A DNA stretch of 13,095 nt from Lachnoclostridium sp. UBA933. Lineage in GTDB: Bacteria; Bacillota; Clostridia; Lachnospirales; Lachnospiraceae. A program made the translations under genes and the position numbers. Location: positions 16,129 to 29,223 of the forward strand of contig DBDL01000035.1 of NCBI GenBank assembly GCA_002293545.1, read 5' to 3'. Below the pieces are notes generated by a model that had not been told where the DNA came from, ran no database searches, and worked only from the letters and a program-made list of their open reading frames with translations. Positions 1,272 to 13,095 of the stretch are shown here, piece by piece; within the stretch, counting starts at the first letter, position 1, and each line of letters begins with the position of its first letter.

Positions 1272-1300
1272 TTGACAAACAAACAAGACGGATGTAGAAT
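1272..1300 (+). promoter_or_regulatory. Sigma-A promoter of the PepSY-BlaI-M56 locus
   Basis: A perfect TTGACA (1272-1277), a 17-base spacer and TAGAAT (1295-1300) are present. The expected transcription start is near 1307, about 47 bases before the ATG at 1354. No comparably good promoter was found in the 169 bases before the blaI-like gene, so this promoter probably drives all three plus-strand genes. Confidence 0.85.
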
Positions 1301-1307
1301 ATGATTA

Positions 1308-1322
1308 TACAAGACATTTGTA
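1308..1322 (+). promoter_or_regulatory. Candidate BlaI/CopY-family operator at the transcription start
   Basis: The sequence TACAAGACATTTGTA is a dyad with TACAA/TTGTA arms. It contains GACATTTGTA (1313-1322), which fits the cop-box consensus KACANNTGTA known for CopY, a member of the BlaI/MecI/CopY family. A second copy with one mismatch, GACGGATGTA, lies at 1287-1296 and overlaps the -10 box. A repressor bound here would block initiation or early elongation of the PepSY transcript, and the adjacent BlaI-like protein is the obvious candidate. The motif is short enough to occur by chance about once per window, so its position is the main support. Confidence 0.5.
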
Positions 1323-1353
1323 GAAAATCAATTTTTTGAAAGGGGACTTTATT

Positions 1354-1887
1354 ATGAAAAAAAGAACATTCGCTATTTTTACCTGTTGGACAATGATTTT
1401 TATGATAACGGCATTGTTATTCGGAGGATTGATTCCTGCTTCTGAAAGCAGCAGCGCAGGCAAAATCACGATGCAGAGAAGGCAGCGGAGGATTTCATCA
1501 AGAAAAGCAATAAAGATTGCAAGGAAAGCGACACGCGGCGGTACGGTAACCGACTGCGATTTAGATTATGAAAGAGGCGTATTGGCATATGAAGTCGAGA
1601 TTTATAAAGGCCGGAACGAGTATACTGTTTTCGTAAGAGCTTCTAGTGGAAAAATTATGAAAAGCAGGAGTATTTTACCAAGTCAAAAGAAAATATCCGT
1701 AGCACAAGCCAAAAAAATTGCTTTGAGAAAGGCAGGCGGCGGGGTTGTTACCGACTGGGATTTGGATAATGAGTTCGGTATCCGTGTTTATGAAATAGAA
1801 GTCCGCAGAGGAATGTATGAATATGATATAACAATTAAGGCATCCAACGGAAAGGTCCTAAGCTGTACAAGAGAATATGATGACTGA
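1354..1887 (+). CDS. Secreted protein with two PepSY domains
   Basis: This 177-residue protein has a basic N-terminus and a hydrophobic segment (residues about 6-28) that looks like a signal peptide or membrane anchor, then a short basic linker rich in Arg and Gln. Two PepSY-type repeats follow (about 47-106 and 114-173). Each has the pattern I-S-x-x-x-A-x-K-I-A at its start, a GG(G/T)-V-T-D turn, Y-E-(V/I)-E, a G-x-x-E-Y stretch and A-S-(S/N)-G-K. PepSY domains occur in propeptides of M4 peptidases and in regulators such as YpeB, where they are thought to inhibit or modulate proteases. The ATG at 1354 was preferred over an upstream TTG because AAAGGGG (1339-1345) is spaced eight bases before it; the TTG would lie inside or ahead of that site. 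The BlaI-like and M56 genes follow on the same strand. Confidence 0.85.
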   Translation: MKKRTFAIFTCWTMIFMITALLFGGLIPASESSSAGKITMQRRQRRISSRKAIKIARKATRGGTVTDCDLDYERGVLAYEVEIYKGRNEYTVFVRASSGKIMKSRSILPSQKKISVAQAKKIALRKAGGGVVTDWDLDNEFGIRVYEIEVRRGMYEYDITIKASNGKVLSCTREYDD

Positions 1888-1889
1888 AA

Positions 1890-1969
1890 AGCGGGCGGCT
1901 GAGAAACGCGTTCGCAAAGAAAGAACTTTCCTAATTTGACAAATTATTTAGCGGGCGGCTGAGAAACGC
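1890..1969 (+). repeat. 20-base direct repeat, two copies 60 bases apart
   Basis: An identical 20-base GC-rich unit beginning AGCGGGCGGCTGAG occurs at 1890-1909, directly after the PepSY stop codon, and at 1950-1969. The copies are exactly 60 bases apart and the sequence between them is AT-richer and unrelated. The second copy is completed into a hairpin by the following GCCGCCGCT; the first is not. The rest of this 169-base gap also holds a small hairpin, TGAAC-GAAA-GTTCA (2012-2025), and an inverted pair GAACTTTC (1923-1930)/GAAAGTTC (2017-2024). Confidence 0.9.
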
Positions 1970-1976
1970 CGCCGCT
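1950..1976 (+). terminator. GC-rich intercistronic hairpin, weak terminator or processing site
   Basis: The arms AGCGGGCGGC and GCCGCCGCT pair as six G-C pairs, one bulged G and three more pairs around an 8-base loop. Only a poor U-rich stretch follows (AAATTTATTTC), so full termination is doubtful. It may reduce read-through from the PepSY gene into the blaI-like gene, or protect the 3' end of a processed PepSY mRNA. Confidence 0.45.
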
Positions 1977-2056
1977 GAAATTTATTTCGTAAACTTTGCT
2001 CCGCGGGAACATGAACGAAAGTTCACCTGACTTTCTATTATAAAAAGGAGAGCGTT

Positions 2057-2422
2057 ATGAAAAAATTACCGAATGCAGAATTTGAAATTATGAAAGTGGT
2101 TTGGAATAATGAATCACCGATTTCTACGAATCAAATCATTTCAAATTTAAAATCAAAGGCATCACGAAAACCTCAAACGATCTTAACACTTCTCATTCGG
2201 CTGATCGACCGTGGTTTCTTAGTCAGTGAAAAAAACGGAAAAGAACGAACCTATATTCCGATTATAACGGAAAAAGATTACTTACAATTTGAAACAGGCG
2301 ACTTTATTGATCGGTATTATGATAATTCGATAACTGATTTGGTAAATACACTTTATGACGGAAAAAGGCTTACCGAAAAGGAATTGGAAAGTTTATCTGT
2401 ATGGATCAGGGAAAGGAGTTGA
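2057..2422 (+). CDS. BlaI/MecI/CopY-family transcriptional repressor
   Basis: This 121-residue protein is of the usual length for the family. The N-terminal two thirds is a winged helix: LPNAEFEIMKVVWN (helix 1), STNQIISNLK (helix 2), PQTILTLLIRLIDRGFLV (recognition helix), then the wing KNGKERTYIPIITEKDY. The C-terminal helices (about 75-121) would form the dimer interface. Family members bind dyad operators as dimers and are lost from DNA when cleaved as a result of a partner M56 sensor being activated. Such a partner is encoded seven bases downstream. The ATG has AAGGAG about six bases upstream. The likely target is the operator-like dyad at 1308-1322. I do not use the name blaI because nothing here ties it to beta-lactam resistance. 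Confidence 0.92.
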   Translation: MKKLPNAEFEIMKVVWNNESPISTNQIISNLKSKASRKPQTILTLLIRLIDRGFLVSEKNGKERTYIPIITEKDYLQFETGDFIDRYYDNSITDLVNTLYDGKRLTEKELESLSVWIRERS

Positions 2423-2429
2423 GCGGATT

Positions 2430-3701
2430 ATGAATTCATGGATTTTATCGCTGTTTGAAACCAGCATCAGTATGACCGTCCTGATTGTGATACTTTACAT
2501 TGCCGGAATGCTGTTTATCAGTAAATTTGCCGCAAAATGGCGTTATTTTATCTGGATCATGATAGCCGCCGCTCTGCTTTTTCCGTTCCGTCCAAAAACA
2601 ATCCGTCCGTTGATTACCTTTGAAATTCCGGAACAATATGTCATGTATTCTTTAATCATATGGGCGTTTGGATTTCTTGTTTCACTCGGAATCAAGCTTG
2701 CTAATTATTTTCGTTTTACCGGCACTGCGAAACGCTGGCGGAGCGAAATCACAGATAAAGAAATCCTTGATATTTATTATTCGGTCCTGAGCAAACACCA
2801 TATTACAAAGGAAATCACTCTTTACGAATGCCGTTCCGTAACGACGCCTATGCTTCTGGGTATCCGAAATCCTGTTATTCTGCTGCCTGATATAGAATTC
2901 CCGCCGGACGAACTGGCGCTGATCCTTGAACATGAACTGATACATCATACGCATAAGGATTTATTGATAAAAATATTATCTATTACGGCGCAGTCAATCC
3001 ACTGGTTTAATCCCTTTATATACCTGATGGATAAAGTCATGCAAAGCGATTGCGAGGCTTATTGTGACGAATCCATCTTGGTTAATGCAGACAGTGGTAC
3101 CAGACAATTATACGGGGAATCAATTATTGGTGTAATCCGAAAACAAAATCGGTATAAAACAGCCTTTTCGACCGCTTTTTTCGGTGGTGTGAAAGACATA
3201 AAAAGGAGGTTGAATTCTGTCATGAATAAAAACAAAAAATGGAATTCGTTAGCAGCATTTATCGCATTCTTTTCGGTAGTATGCATTCTATCCTCCGGTT
3301 TACTTTTTTCTGCATGTGCGGTATCCACTCCCGATGCATCAAATACTCCGGTTCATGATACCAATCGTGGTACCAAACCGGAAACAAATGCCGATACCCC
3401 TCAGAATGAAAACATAAACAATACAGAAAACACAAACAATGAAAAAGATGGAAACAATACGGATTCCTTGCCAAATGACAAAGCTCGGACAGATAAAAAC
3501 ATGATCTCGGCGGAGAAAGCTAAAAAAATTGTTTTAAACGATATCGGCGGAGGCAAAATCACAGCTTATGAACTGGAACGCGACGACCATATGATGCAAT
3601 ATGAAATCGAAGCAATGAAGGGTGATACCGAATATGATTATTCTATTGATGCTTTCAGCGGAACGATTCTCGGCAAGGAATCAGAAAGCATATTTGACTG
3701 A
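2430..3701 (+). CDS. M56 (BlaR1/MecR1-type) membrane metalloprotease with C-terminal PepSY sensor
   Basis: This 423-residue membrane protein has helices at about residues 5-30, 37-53, 70-92 and 273-295, as in BlaR1. The protease loop between helices 3 and 4 carries the zinc motif HELIH (H168, E169, H172), followed by HWFNPFIYLM and the acidic CEAYCDE stretch (209-214) typical of M56. Helix 4 ends in a lipobox-like LLFSAC. A 60-residue Asn/Thr/Asp-rich linker follows, then a single PepSY domain (about 358-420) that aligns closely with both domains of the upstream secreted protein. In BlaR1 this outer position holds a penicillin-binding domain, so the signal here should differ. ATG 2430 was chosen because AAAGGAG (2412-2418) lies 11 bases upstream and the blaI-like gene stops at 2422. 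An earlier in-frame ATG at 2355 lies inside the blaI-like gene. Confidence 0.92.
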   Translation: MNSWILSLFETSISMTVLIVILYIAGMLFISKFAAKWRYFIWIMIAAALLFPFRPKTIRPLITFEIPEQYVMYSLIIWAFGFLVSLGIKLANYFRFTGTAKRWRSEITDKEILDIYYSVLSKHHITKEITLYECRSVTTPMLLGIRNPVILLPDIEFPPDELALILEHELIHHTHKDLLIKILSITAQSIHWFNPFIYLMDKVMQSDCEAYCDESILVNADSGTRQLYGESIIGVIRKQNRYKTAFSTAFFGGVKDIKRRLNSVMNKNKKWNSLAAFIAFFSVVCILSSGLLFSACAVSTPDASNTPVHDTNRGTKPETNADTPQNENINNTENTNNEKDGNNTDSLPNDKARTDKNMISAEKAKKIVLNDIGGGKITAYELERDDHMMQYEIEAMKGDTEYDYSIDAFSGTILGKESESIFD

Positions 3702-5513: not shown

Positions 5514-8500
5514 TTATACGATTTCATCTTTTACCATACTCTTTTTACGGGTCAATAAACCATAAATACACGGTACTACTACGAGTGTGAGAATCGTTCC
5601 GTAAATCAGTCCGCCGATTGTAACAATTGCCATCGGCTGCACCATATCACTTCCCATTCCCATACCAAATGCCATCGTGGACAATCCAAGAATCGTTGTC
5701 ATTGCGGTCATTAAAATCGGCCGCATTCTGACCTGACCCGCCAGAATCATTGCTTCGGTTCTCTCCATCCCCCCGCGTCTGAGCTGATTGATATAATCCA
5801 CCAATACAATACCGTTATTAACAATAATACCTGAGAGCATTACAAATCCTATCATGGCAATGACACTGATTTCTTTCCCGGCAATCATCAGCCCTAAGAA
5901 TCCTCCCGTAAAGGCAAGCGGCAGCGTAAATAATATGATGAACGGGGATAACAATGACTGGAACTGCGCTACCATAATCAAATACATAAACAGGATTCCC
6001 ACAACCAGCATAAGCATTACCTGTTCCATTGACTCATTGATACTGGCGTCTTCCCCTTCCATTATATACTCATAACCTTCCGGCGCCTGATATCCGTCTA
6101 ATGCTTCGTTTACCTCTTCGCTGACTAAACCGATATTATAATCATCTTCCAGCTCCGCCCGCACCCTCATAGTCCTTGACTGGTTATCTCTTGAAATTCC
6201 TTTGGGAGCTAAGGATACACTGAAATCTGCAATTTCAGATAATTTTACATTCTTCTTTTTTCCTTCTTTTGTCGTGTATTCGATATCCATATTGCGGATA
6301 TCTTTTCGTTCCAGGGTTTCATTTGCTTCATCTTTTACAAAAATATCATAGTCTTTCGTATCTGTTTCTATCGTCGTTGCCGCCGTGGCTTCGGCGGCTT
6401 TCAGACGAATCTGCTCAAACACCTGAGCTACCGTTAATTGATAACTCATCGCCTTTCCTTTGTTGATACTGATATGAAATTCCTGTGAATCTTCGTCCAA
6501 TCCGTTAGAAATTTCTTTCAGTCCTTTTATATGTTCGATTCTTTTTATGATATCATCGGTAATCTCCTGAAGCCGATCCAAATCTTTTCCCTTTACCTGA
6601 ATACTGATGCCGTTTCCTCCGAGCGCGCTCATATCCATGCCGGCAGTTTCAACAGTGACCTCTCCCGGAAACCCTTTCGTACGTTCTGTTATCATGTCTG
6701 CGAGTTCGTCGTTGGTCAGCGTCCGTTCTTCATTTAACATAATATACATGTCTACCGATTCACGGCTTCCTCCGCCGCCCATGCCGCCCATGTTCATCAT
6801 CATGTTGGCACCGCCGCTCATGGCTCCGATTGTCGTAATGTCCGGAATATCCTTAATGGCGTCCATAATTTTATCCGAAATCTCCGTTGCTTCTTCAAAG
6901 GTAGCCTCCTTTTCCGCCCGATATGTGACCGAAGCTTGTGTGCTTTCCATCTCCGGCATTAAGGAAGTTCCTTTTCGGGATGCAAGAAAAGCAGTCAGAA
7001 CCATAAGTCCCAGACTTACCAATACTACGATTATTTTGGCATGTAACAGCTTTTTCATGACAGCCGCATAGAACCGGTAAACGACACCTAAAAAAGTATC
7101 CTTTGTTTCCCTTGTTTTACGCAATGTACCTGCCGCCAATGCAGGAATCAGCGTCAATGCCACAACCAGACTCGCTATAAGCGAATATGCCAGTGTCAAA
7201 CCCAAATCCACAAAAAGCTGCCTTGTAAGTCCGTCGGTAAATATAATCGGGGCAAACACACAAATTGTTGTCAGCGTAGAGGCTGTAATAGCACCGGCAA
7301 CTCCCTTTGCCCCTTCTACGGCTGCTTTTTTTGCACTCACGCCTTCTTTTCTCAGACGATATATGTTCTCAATTACAACAATGGAATTATCTACCAGCAT
7401 CCCAACGCCAAGCGCCAAGCCGGAAAGGGAAATAATGTTTAATGTAACGCCGGTAAAATACATAAGTACGATGGTGCTTACCAGGCTGAACGGGATCGAA
7501 CAGGCAACAATCAATGTCGGACGCCAATCCCACAGGAATATGAGAAGGATGAAAATTGCCAGTATCCCGCCCATCAGAAGATTCTCAAATACAGAACCTA
7601 CAACCAAATCAATATACACACCCTGATCCATTAATGTCGTTATGTGCATCTCTTTATCGGCGGACTGCATTTCATCAAATTTTTCCAGGATACGATCCGA
7701 TACATCACCGGTTGAGTAACCGGACTGTTTTTCCATCGTCAGGGCAACTGCGGGTTTTCCGTCAATCTTTGCGTACACTTCCGCCGAATTGTCCGTTATT
7801 ATCACATCCGCTACATCTTTTAATTTGATCGGCTTCAAGCCGTCGATATCATAATCCATGATGACAAGGTCTTTAAACCCTTTGGCATTGGGAATGTCAT
7901 CACCTACCCGGACAAGATAATCCACGTCATCTTCCGTTATATAACCGGCAGGCATTTCAAAGTTTTCTGCCATCAGAATACCTTTTACCATCTCCGTTGT
8001 CAGCACTTTATTCAAATCCGAACTTTTCTTGGTTTCCTTCTTTGTATCGTCAAACTGCTTCTTCGCATCATCCAGCTTGCTTTTTCCGCTGCTTAAATTT
8101 GCCTGTGCCACGCTCAATTGAATCGAAGCCAATATTTTTTGCTCGCTCAATTGTTTGATTGCCTTATCGGTCGTAATCTCACCGTTCTTTAATTTTTGTC
8201 TTGCGGTACGCAGCTTCTTCAGACCGTCTGCAATTTGCTTCTTTGCCTTTGTGATTGCCGGCTTGGAAGCGATCAATTCTGCCTCCTGTTTATTTAAGTC
8301 TACAAGTGTAGACTCCAGTTTGTCGACCCCTCCGCTTACTTCATTCAGTTTTTTATCAATATCATCCCTTGTCATATTTTGTGACTTCAGCTCTTCATCA
8401 ATTTGAGCCAGCTGCCTTTCAACGAGCTGCAAGGCGGATTTTAAAGCTGCTTTCGCCGCCTGATTATCCGTCAATGCAATTTGCTCATAGAGCATTGTAC

Positions 8501-11669: not shown

Positions 11670-12380
11670 TTATCTTTTTATGATGAAAACTGCCTCAGCA
11701 TTTTTAGTATTATCTTGCAAGTATATCTCAACTTGATCTCCTTTGCGCAGATTGCTCCATCCTATCCCTTTTACAGTATCAAATATATATGAATAACTAA
11801 TATCTATTTTATCATTACTTGTATCTATCACACATGTTCGATTTTTATTTTTATTATATATCTCTATAATTTTACCTGAAATAGATTTTTTTTCTTTATT
11901 ATTATGATATTGTCCTAAAATAATGTTACCAACCACGTTATCAAAAGCTATCGCTTCCTTATATCCCACTTCTTTAACATGCTCGTTAATCATAATAAAC
12001 ATAGCTCCATCAAAATTGACTTCAATGGTATTATTTCCATCAACTTGGAATACAAGTAAATAGGACATTCCCCCAAAGTACAAATCTGGATTCTTTCTTG
12101 TCTTAATCGTATGAATAGCTTCAAAATAATCCACAAGTATTTTAATATTTTCCGAATCAGTTATTTCAAGATTTTTAAAAGGTCCTTGTGGTATAGGTAG
12201 GGTGCTAATACTTATTTTAGTTATCTTATCCTCAAATATAGTATTTAATGCCTCGTCAACTTCTTTATATTCTCTATAACATCCCGAAAACAATACTATC
12301 ATAGCCAAACAAAAGATGAATCTTGACGGATACTTAAGCAATTTTCTTTTTAACCAAAGTCCCTTGCTGTTAATGACCAT
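11670..12380 (-). CDS. Lipoprotein, probable immunity partner of the Rhs toxin
   Basis: This 236-residue protein has a basic N-terminus, a hydrophobic segment (about 20-32) and a lipobox-like FSGC that would make C34 the lipidated residue, placing it on the outer face of the membrane. The mature part appears to have two parts: about 50-150, with alternating beta-like stretches (YLLVFQVDGNNTIEVNFDG), and about 165-236, a small beta-rich region (GKIIEIYNKNKNRTCVID, GDQVEIYLQD) that may be an OB-like barrel. I do not recognise either family. The gene overlaps the Rhs coding end by 31 bases, has GGAGG and GAGGG before its ATG, and is very AT-rich. Its place directly after a polymorphic toxin tail is where an immunity gene is expected; that role is inferred from position. 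Confidence 0.75.
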   Translation of the reverse strand: MVINSKGLWLKRKLLKYPSRFIFCLAMIVLFSGCYREYKEVDEALNTIFEDKITKISISTLPIPQGPFKNLEITDSENIKILVDYFEAIHTIKTRKNPDLYFGGMSYLLVFQVDGNNTIEVNFDGAMFIMINEHVKEVGYKEAIAFDNVVGNIILGQYHNNKEKKSISGKIIEIYNKNKNRTCVIDTSNDKIDISYSYIFDTVKGIGWSNLRKGDQVEIYLQDNTKNAEAVFIIKR

Positions 12381-13095
12381 TTTCCCTCTGCACCTCCATT
12401 TTTACCAAAGACATGTTTTTTGAAATCATCAAATTTTACCCTTTTAGTATTTCCTTTATTTACGGGCAATGGATCATTAATGTGTATATATCTTTCTCCA
12501 TTAAGATACTCATATCCACGGATTACCACAGCATGACCTCCTCCTCTTGCCCAATTTATTATGGCCAAGATTGGACTTCTTTTATTAATTTGCTTCATTA
12601 CTGTGTTCCAATTAGCTGACCAAGGCCAAATAGTTGATTTCATCTTATTCTTATGTGCTCCCAAAAAAAATTGAAGCATATTAATATCTGTATTCTTTGC
12701 ATTACCGATACAGTTTTTGTGTAGTTGTTTTTGGCTTACCTTTCTCCCTTTTTTATATTTAAGAATCATCTGTAAAGAAGCCACTCCACACCACCTAGTT
12801 CGCTTCTGCCCGAACAACTTAACCCCTAACAACTTCTTTTTATTGGGATGAACATAGTCAGGTGATGGTGCAGGTTGAGGTGGTGCGGGCGTTGTACGTG
12901 CCCTAGGTGGTGGTTGTAATGGCATTGGAATATGTCCACTTGGGTCTGAATAATTAATCGGATTTCCTGCGGTAAAACTCCGCAAATTCCACTTCCCCGG
13001 TTCATTCTGCTCTCCCCGGTAACTATCCTGTGTCAAGAACACGCCATCTTCGGGACGATATATCCTCGCATTCATATAATACTGCTGAGAAACCC
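12350..13095 (-). CDS. Rhs-repeat polymorphic toxin, C-terminal end with papain-like cysteine protease domain
   Basis: The frame runs off the right edge; the ATG at 13075 is an internal methionine, because the frame continues upstream as VSQQYY and then ARIYRPEDGVF. This is the conserved end of an Rhs core (usually YYLRARYYDPETGRF), and it closes with NPINYSDPSGH. A proline-rich linker follows (PMPLQPPPRARTTPAPPQ), then a domain of about 165 residues with a papain-like set, counted from M13075: Q90, C96 in RWCGVAS six residues later, H181 in GGGHAVVIRGYE, and N200/D201 in HINDP. This matches C39/C70-like cysteine proteases. The Rhs shell is thought to encase and deliver the C-terminal toxin; the target is unknown. 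The lipoprotein gene overlaps its stop. DNA of the toxin part is AT-richer than the Rhs core, as expected for a swapped cassette. Confidence 0.88.
   Translation of the reverse strand, partial: VSQQYYMNARIYRPEDGVFLTQDSYRGEQNEPGKWNLRSFTAGNPINYSDPSGHIPMPLQPPPRARTTPAPPQPAPSPDYVHPNKKKLLGVKLFGQKRTRWCGVASLQMILKYKKGRKVSQKQLHKNCIGNAKNTDINMLQFFLGAHKNKMKSTIWPWSANWNTVMKQINKRSPILAIINWARGGGHAVVIRGYEYLNGERYIHINDPLPVNKGNTKRVKFDDFKKHVFGKNGGAEGKWSLTARDFG

Follow-up and report, generated by a model that had tools for sequence, protein, structure and literature searches.

The described systems closest to the locus treated here are the BlaR1/BlaI and MecR1/MecI circuits, in which a repressor is paired with a receptor-protease of M56 fold (with an HEXXH motif, four membrane helices and a C-terminal sensor), operator boxes lie on the output promoter, and the output, a beta-lactamase or PBP2a, is related to the sensor domain. 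According to the available part of PMC3356374, the zinc loop of BlaR1 is cytoplasmic and its C-terminal domain lies outside; as for the fate of BlaI on induction, i.e., direct cleavage or release by a peptidoglycan dipeptide, the available parts of PMC7593790, PMC3356374 and PMC3305447 differ. PepSY proteins have been described in other circuits: DbfQ, which is secreted, binds the sensor DbfS with an affinity of 30 nM, through contacts predicted to be electrostatic (PMC12714742, available text), and TseB (YpmB) and CopD are membrane proteins with two PepSY domains on the extracellular side, acting on penicillin-binding proteins (PMC10653890, available text). The locus analysed in this work, located in a stretch of 13,095 nucleotides of Lachnoclostridium sp. 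UBA933 (hereafter, the window), joins PepSY domains to a BlaI/M56 pair.

Three genes lie side by side on the plus strand (Table 1), encoding a double-PepSY protein (P0001), a BlaI-type repressor (P0002) and an M56 membrane metallopeptidase with a C-terminal PepSY tail (P0003, the receptor); an earlier note on this DNA had described the same order, which is borne out by the open reading frames (ORFs) and their Pfam domains. P0002, a winged-helix protein, scores 86.5 bits against Penicillinase_R, above the curated cut-off of 22.6. The working plan of BlaR/BlaI is kept at this locus, and the defining feature of the BlaR1 sensor is absent: unlike BlaR1 and MecR1, the receptor carries PepSY in place of the penicillin-binding domain (blaR1_generic score of 133.7 bits, cut-off 400), and the apparent output is a secreted PepSY protein, with no beta-lactamase or PBP2a. 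The locus resembles DbfQRS in that the gene of a secreted PepSY protein opens an operon that also encodes a membrane sensor, and differs from it in relying on M56 and BlaI, that is, on regulated proteolysis, instead of a histidine kinase and a response regulator; moreover, the sensor itself carries PepSY here, whereas the available text of PMC12714742 does not describe DbfS as a PepSY protein. Like TseB and CopD, P0001 has two tandem PepSY domains (residues ~47-102 and ~114-169) behind an N-terminal hydrophobic segment; unlike these membrane proteins, it looks as if it were cleaved and secreted, given a start resembling a signal peptide and the A-x-A sites of its homologues (both judged by eye), and it falls below the TseB cut-off (17.9 bits versus 200). 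Its best-scoring solved relative, as a profile, is the putative lipoprotein CD1622 (PDB 4exr, E 5.8e-15). In the open-access literature, no description of PepSY paired with BlaI or M56 was found; PMC3356374, PMC9170149, PMC7693968 and PMC12131822 use these terms, in their available parts, for other matters. Since the pairing is visible in precomputed Pfam assignments, the M56-PepSY architecture is to be regarded as already recorded.

Judging from the data reported below, a BlaI/M56 circuit sensing through PepSY very probably has the secreted PepSY proteins as its output. The wider reading, to which we assign a probability of about 0.6, is that of a proteolytic switch encoded in one operon, with a PepSY sensor and a secreted PepSY output acting back on the outer side of the circuit; the regulatory half of this switch is well supported, and a binding to the receptor tail and a sign of the feedback are proposed.

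Promoter boxes and probable co-regulation across genomes

BlaI-type boxes have a TACA-NN-TGTA dyad as consensus, and two sequences resembling it are located at the promoter preceding the PepSY gene, which is also the best plus-strand match in the promoter scan of the window (Table 1). When the pattern AAGACANNTGTAGAAT was searched with at most one mismatch across the genome of the window (G000; 2.6 Mb, 207 contigs), three matches were obtained, two of them being these boxes, versus one for the reversed control. The gap preceding blaI (1888-2056) contains no box, and the consensus scan, which is weak evidence either way, lists no promoter in it, in agreement with the remark of the earlier note that a good internal promoter is lacking; the sole other plus-strand site matching 10/12 positions, weak evidence too, falls inside blaI (2082-2110). 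A separate internal promoter for blaI and the M56 gene was thus rejected.

The same boxed promoter precedes PepSY genes of other genomes. All nine separate PepSY genes, belonging to the window locus and to genomes G820, G822, G824 and G831, carry a box on the -10 element of a TTGAC-17/18-TAGAAT promoter, usually with a second box ~22 bp further on; the expression describing the box was written after the sequences had been seen and includes the G831 variant, and five of the gene starts were placed further downstream than the earliest potential start codon. In 2000 sets of shuffled upstream regions of these nine genes, a mean of 0.0045 genes, and never more than one, had a box. A Pfam search of the four Peptostreptococcaceae-type genomes (G820, G822, G824 and G831) disclosed eight separate PepSY ORFs, all of them boxed; two of the eight are located on other contigs of G822 and G824, to which the box pattern led (L194/L198, L197). 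Of 14 blaI genes analysed, 12 are also preceded by at least one box, which in nine of the 12 falls on the -10 element; the two lacking it are those of G826 and of the window, the latter being located downstream of the boxed PepSY gene.

Over the whole length of 12 distinct genomes (G821 and G823 repeat G817 and G816), the pattern matches 44 times, versus 12 for the reversed control, and 22 of the 44 matches lie ahead of PepSY or blaI genes belonging to this system. This share is 2/3 in G000, 4/4 in G820, 3/5 in G822 and 7/8 in G824, with one, two, zero and one reversed-control matches, respectively.

At four PepSY promoters (loci L020, L046 and L050), the paired boxes are preceded, at a distance of ~100 bp, by a further and perfect TACAAATGTA site.

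Table 1. Features of the PepSY/BlaI/M56 locus (positions refer to the window; genome coordinates in brackets).
Feature	Position	Strand	Remarks
Promoter TTGACA-17-TAGAAT	1272..1300	+	11/12 consensus match; TTGACA starts at 1272; precedes PepSY gene
BlaI-type box 1, AAGACGGATGTAGAAT	1285..1300 (G000:C196:17413-17428)	+	Overlaps -10 element
BlaI-type box 2, AAGACATTTGTAGAAA	1311..1326 (G000:C196:17439-17454)	+	26 bp beyond box 1
Double-PepSY protein P0001, apparently secreted, 177 aa	1354..1887	+	Pfam PepSY, two stretches, E 5.8e-24
Gap with 20-nt direct repeat (1890-1909, 1950-1969)	1890..1979	+	Hairpin ~1947-1979 from second copy
BlaI-type repressor P0002, 121 aa	2057..2422	+	Pfam Penicillinase_R, E 2.2e-24
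BlaR1-type membrane metallopeptidase (M56) ending in a PepSY tail, P0003, 423 aa	2430..3701	+	Pfam Peptidase_M56, E 6.7e-46; PepSY at residues ~359-420
Receptor PepSY domain (residues 361-420)	3510..3689	+	Pfam PepSY, E 5.4e-10

Recurrence and structure of the receptor

Species genomes were scanned with an alignment of M56-PepSY proteins, and the best 80 of 556 loci were analysed, PepSY tails and blaI being scored with purpose-built profiles. A tail is present in 12 of the 80 receptors, from Listeria and several Clostridia-type genomes, 11 of them in one frame and the twelfth (L009) as two ORFs. A Pfam-confirmed separate PepSY gene is located nearby in three of the 12 M56-PepSY loci (L020, L046 and L050) and in none of the other 68 (Fisher p 0.0027, a value that overstates independence, since the three loci come from one bacterial family); if the downstream ORF of L079, too weak for Pfam PepSY and outside the strict count, is added, p becomes 0.0003. 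G831, a further genome of the same family, has a separate PepSY gene as well, and M56-PepSY was found in five of the 11 genomes searched in that family. The linkage of the three genes, on which the earlier note had staked its proposal, is therefore recurrent. It would be scarcely credible, in the light of these counts and of the shared promoters, that the genes are chance neighbours without functional link, even though BlaI beside M56 is generic (78 of the 80 loci have a blaI ORF) and only the PepSY part consequently needs explaining.

In L009 of Listeria grandensis (5989-7928), the M56 part and the PepSY tail of the receptor lie in different frames, which is not the case in the four other Listeria loci.

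Among 30 loci taken from a search of 397 genomes of the family to which the window belongs, the only PepSY tail is that of the window, and a class-level search of 391 genomes gave none in 16 further M56 loci; in both searches at most three candidates were scored per genome and part of the matches was taken, so that others may be missed. A protein search returned at least 14 matches with both Pfam domains, query included, among the 120 of 164 matches listed. The closest homologues of P0001 (P0124) and of P0003 (P0004) both bear Lachnoclostridium names of metagenome-assembled genomes whose longest contig is 6004 bases, which suggests, short of proof, that the two genes are neighbours. G000 contains a single M56 gene by Pfam search, that of the locus, and PepSY was found there only at this locus and on the short contig C157 (L002 1-510), which opens inside a second double-PepSY gene; the protein encoded is acidic and, in a quick tree, groups with PepSY domains of other genomes, apart from P0001.

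The start of the M56 gene is most likely 2430 instead of 2355, since P0004, its closest homologue (59-62% identity), also starts with this MNSW. The zinc motif HELIH of P0003 corresponds to residues 168-172, and H168, E169 and H172, together with E209, C212 and D213, are invariant across 44 sequences, so that both HEXXH and E..CD are intact. The structural model of P0003 has a mean predicted local distance difference test score (pLDDT) of 87.5 and a predicted template modelling score (pTM) of 0.72, with membrane helices at 2-29, 35-50, 68-103 and 269-292, a linker (322-354) of pLDDT <50 and a PepSY tail of pLDDT 90-98. All Foldseek matches of this model with E ≤ 0.001 are six entries of Staphylococcus aureus BlaR1, followed by the PepSY proteins CD1622 (E 0.002), YpmB (0.045) and YpeB (0.12); at the sequence level, S. 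aureus BlaR1 entries are the only matches of the receptor at E ≤ 0.01. The model of the secreted protein (eight sequences; pLDDT 75, pTM 0.43) consists of two folds resembling PepSY, with an uncertain placement relative to each other.

Proposed mechanism and alternative explanations

As suggested by the conserved boxes, BlaI would sit on the two boxes over the -10 element and the start region of the PepSY promoter, keeping the expression of the operon low. The M56 protein is predicted, from the structural model and by homology, to have its zinc protease on the inner side of the membrane and its PepSY domain, borne by a flexible linker, on the outer side. In G831 the secreted protein opens as a copy of receptor helix 4 plus PepSY (see below); a receptor helix 4 can thus apparently act as a signal peptide, which also argues for a receptor tail outside the cell. 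Some event at this outer domain might activate the inner protease, and BlaI would then be lost as in BlaR1/BlaI, the output being the secreted PepSY protein plus more repressor and receptor. Once outside, the secreted protein may act on the receptor or on its ligand. In the lineage of the window, its basic face would most likely bind the acidic tail of the receptor and damp the signal, as DbfQ does on the DbfS kinase. DbfQ/DbfS is the best precedent for a direct binding. In slices cut at chosen residues, the isoelectric point is 9.85 for residues 34-177 of P0001 (9.56 and 9.06 in homologues) and 4.33 for residues 319-423 of the receptor (4.16 in a homologue); moreover, one position occupied by D in 33/41 secreted and 32/40 receptor domains is K or R in all six secreted domains of the window lineage.

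Several observations weigh against this reading. In other lineages the receptor and secreted PepSY domains are mostly both acidic, and a charge-driven binding cannot, therefore, be the general rule. Half of the 44 pattern matches lie elsewhere than at this system, especially in G816, G817 and G826, and G826 has neither a box before blaI nor one before its PepSY-like ORF within the stretch tested. Three PepSY ORFs scoring above the cut-off (two in G818 and one in G057) have no adjoining pattern match. No separate PepSY gene with a box was obtained by the Pfam search in G818 (Listeria), G057, G060 (74% complete) and G825, hence the secreted partner is not obligatory. Lastly, contig C157 starts inside its PepSY gene, so that the promoter lies off it, and boxes also precede M56 genes without PepSY at four of 49 such loci (L119, L142, L146 and L147). 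Because all eight separate PepSY ORFs are boxed, yet these M56 genes are boxed too, the element is best described as a box of the BlaI family, its presumed targets in the four related genomes comprising all separate PepSY genes that were detected.

An 896-aa open frame at G057:C1:2044918-2046369 contains four PepSY domains; no box match is located nearby.

Among the alternatives to the feedback switch, the one that survives best, possible even if on balance unlikely, is that a free copy of the receptor ectodomain, in the form of the secreted PepSY protein, titrates the same ligand as the receptor (for example, a metal ion or cationic peptide) and thereby shuts the circuit off, as beta-lactamase does for BlaR1. 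In G831, the first 329 bases of the secreted gene repeat, at 94% identity (310/329), a segment of the receptor gene that starts at a methionine codon shortly ahead of helix 4 and takes in the first PepSY, and the secreted gene and blaI have matching promoters; a looser similarity of the same kind between receptor and secreted protein is found in G820 and G824. Such a role might also be suggested by the presence of up to seven PepSY repeats in the secreted proteins and of Asp-rich tails on several secreted proteins and receptors. In the window, on the other hand, the secreted domains are charge-reversed with respect to the receptor domain and share with it a mean identity of 38% (maximum 40%), the receptor PepSY being no closer to them than to the secreted PepSY of other genomes; the statement of the earlier note that the three domains are closely similar was thus too strong. 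The charge contrast makes a direct binding partner likelier than a plain decoy in this lineage. A recent duplication between the two window genes was rejected, as their lineages are separate in a quick, midpoint-rooted tree (support values left aside), each being shared with LBR68 homologues; both lineages look old.

It is unlikely, in our opinion, that the circuit serves as a protease shield, in which the receptor PepSY would detect an extracellular protease and the secreted PepSY inhibit it in the manner of an M4 propeptide. PepSY has been described as an inhibitory prodomain of thermolysin-like peptidases (PMC3356374, available part), and a PepSY entry from an M4 propeptide is, together with 4exr, the only match of the secreted-protein profile among solved structures at E ≤ 1. 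No M4 peptidase gene is linked to the locus in the window, the next gene encoding an M23 peptidase on the other strand, and TseB/CopD and DbfQ do other things according to the available parts of PMC10653890 and PMC12714742, respectively.

Less probable still is the idea that the receptor itself is the output, signal peptidase cutting after helix 4 and freeing the PepSY tail at loci without a secreted gene. In a crude scan, an [AVST]-x-A site is present at the end of helix 4 in 15/15 M56-PepSY proteins, and an equivalent segment begins the secreted protein of G831. The same site occurs, though, in 98/136 M56 proteins without PepSY (the stricter A-x-A in 48/136, versus 8/15 with PepSY), and in the window helix 4 ends in FSAC, where the model places strands at 62-67 and 293-298. 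A helix 4 resembling a signal peptide was accordingly rejected as a hallmark of PepSY receptors and, being common in M56 proteins without PepSY, is regarded as a general pre-adaptation.

The earlier note had viewed the outer PepSY of the protease as a sensor or an autoinhibitor; the former role agrees with the BlaI/BlaR-like circuit, its recurrence and the conserved boxes, whereas a direct inhibition of the receptor's own zinc site, for which the inhibition of cognate thermolysin-like peptidases by PepSY (PMC3356374, available part) might speak, is very improbable and remains unsupported because of the topology of BlaR1, the BlaR1 fold of the receptor and the secreted copy in G831.

Combining these data with the feedback switch, we tentatively propose, while granting that the odds are somewhat against it, a family of regulated-proteolysis circuits that produce, as output, their own sensor domain in a duplicated, soluble form, in which the last receptor helix doubled as signal peptide and the same operator was retained; the duplicates might then have expanded (up to seven PepSY) or diverged into charge-reversed partners, as in the window. 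If the switch is real, the BlaR/BlaI design, known mainly for the sensing of beta-lactams, would be a general framework into which different outer sensors can be fitted, and PepSY, a domain that is still poorly understood, would gain a defined circuit of receptor, repressor, operator and output genes, amenable to assay in a laboratory strain of Bacillus. The operator would make the regulon searchable by sequence, and the duplication from receptor to output in G831 would represent a concrete route for the origin of such feedback proteins.

Intergenic repeat and other features of the window

The gap between the PepSY gene and blaI contains a direct repeat and a hairpin (Table 1). A 51-nt piece of it, picked afterwards, folds at z -3.22, and the fold of the whole gap is not significant (z -0.99). 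The hairpin may attenuate read-through, holding the level of the regulators below that of the output. The repeat, with its GCGGGCGGCTGAGAAACGC core and hairpin-forming sequence behind it, occurs at 16 places in G000 with at most two mismatches (control, zero); because of this dispersion, the hairpin may be a repeat or a terminator-like element without any special role. The dispersed GCGGGCGGCTGAGAAACGC repeat may belong to the repetitive extragenic palindromic (REP) or terminator-like elements. At gathering thresholds, the window has no match in Rfam.

Further away, on the minus strand, the gene at 12350-13075 encodes a C39-like peptidase domain (Pfam) behind a stretch resembling the end of an Rhs-type repeat protein, and it is followed by a gene (11670-12380, minus strand) for a small protein without Pfam match. 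It is possible that the two represent a polymorphic toxin/immunity pair of bacterial competition.

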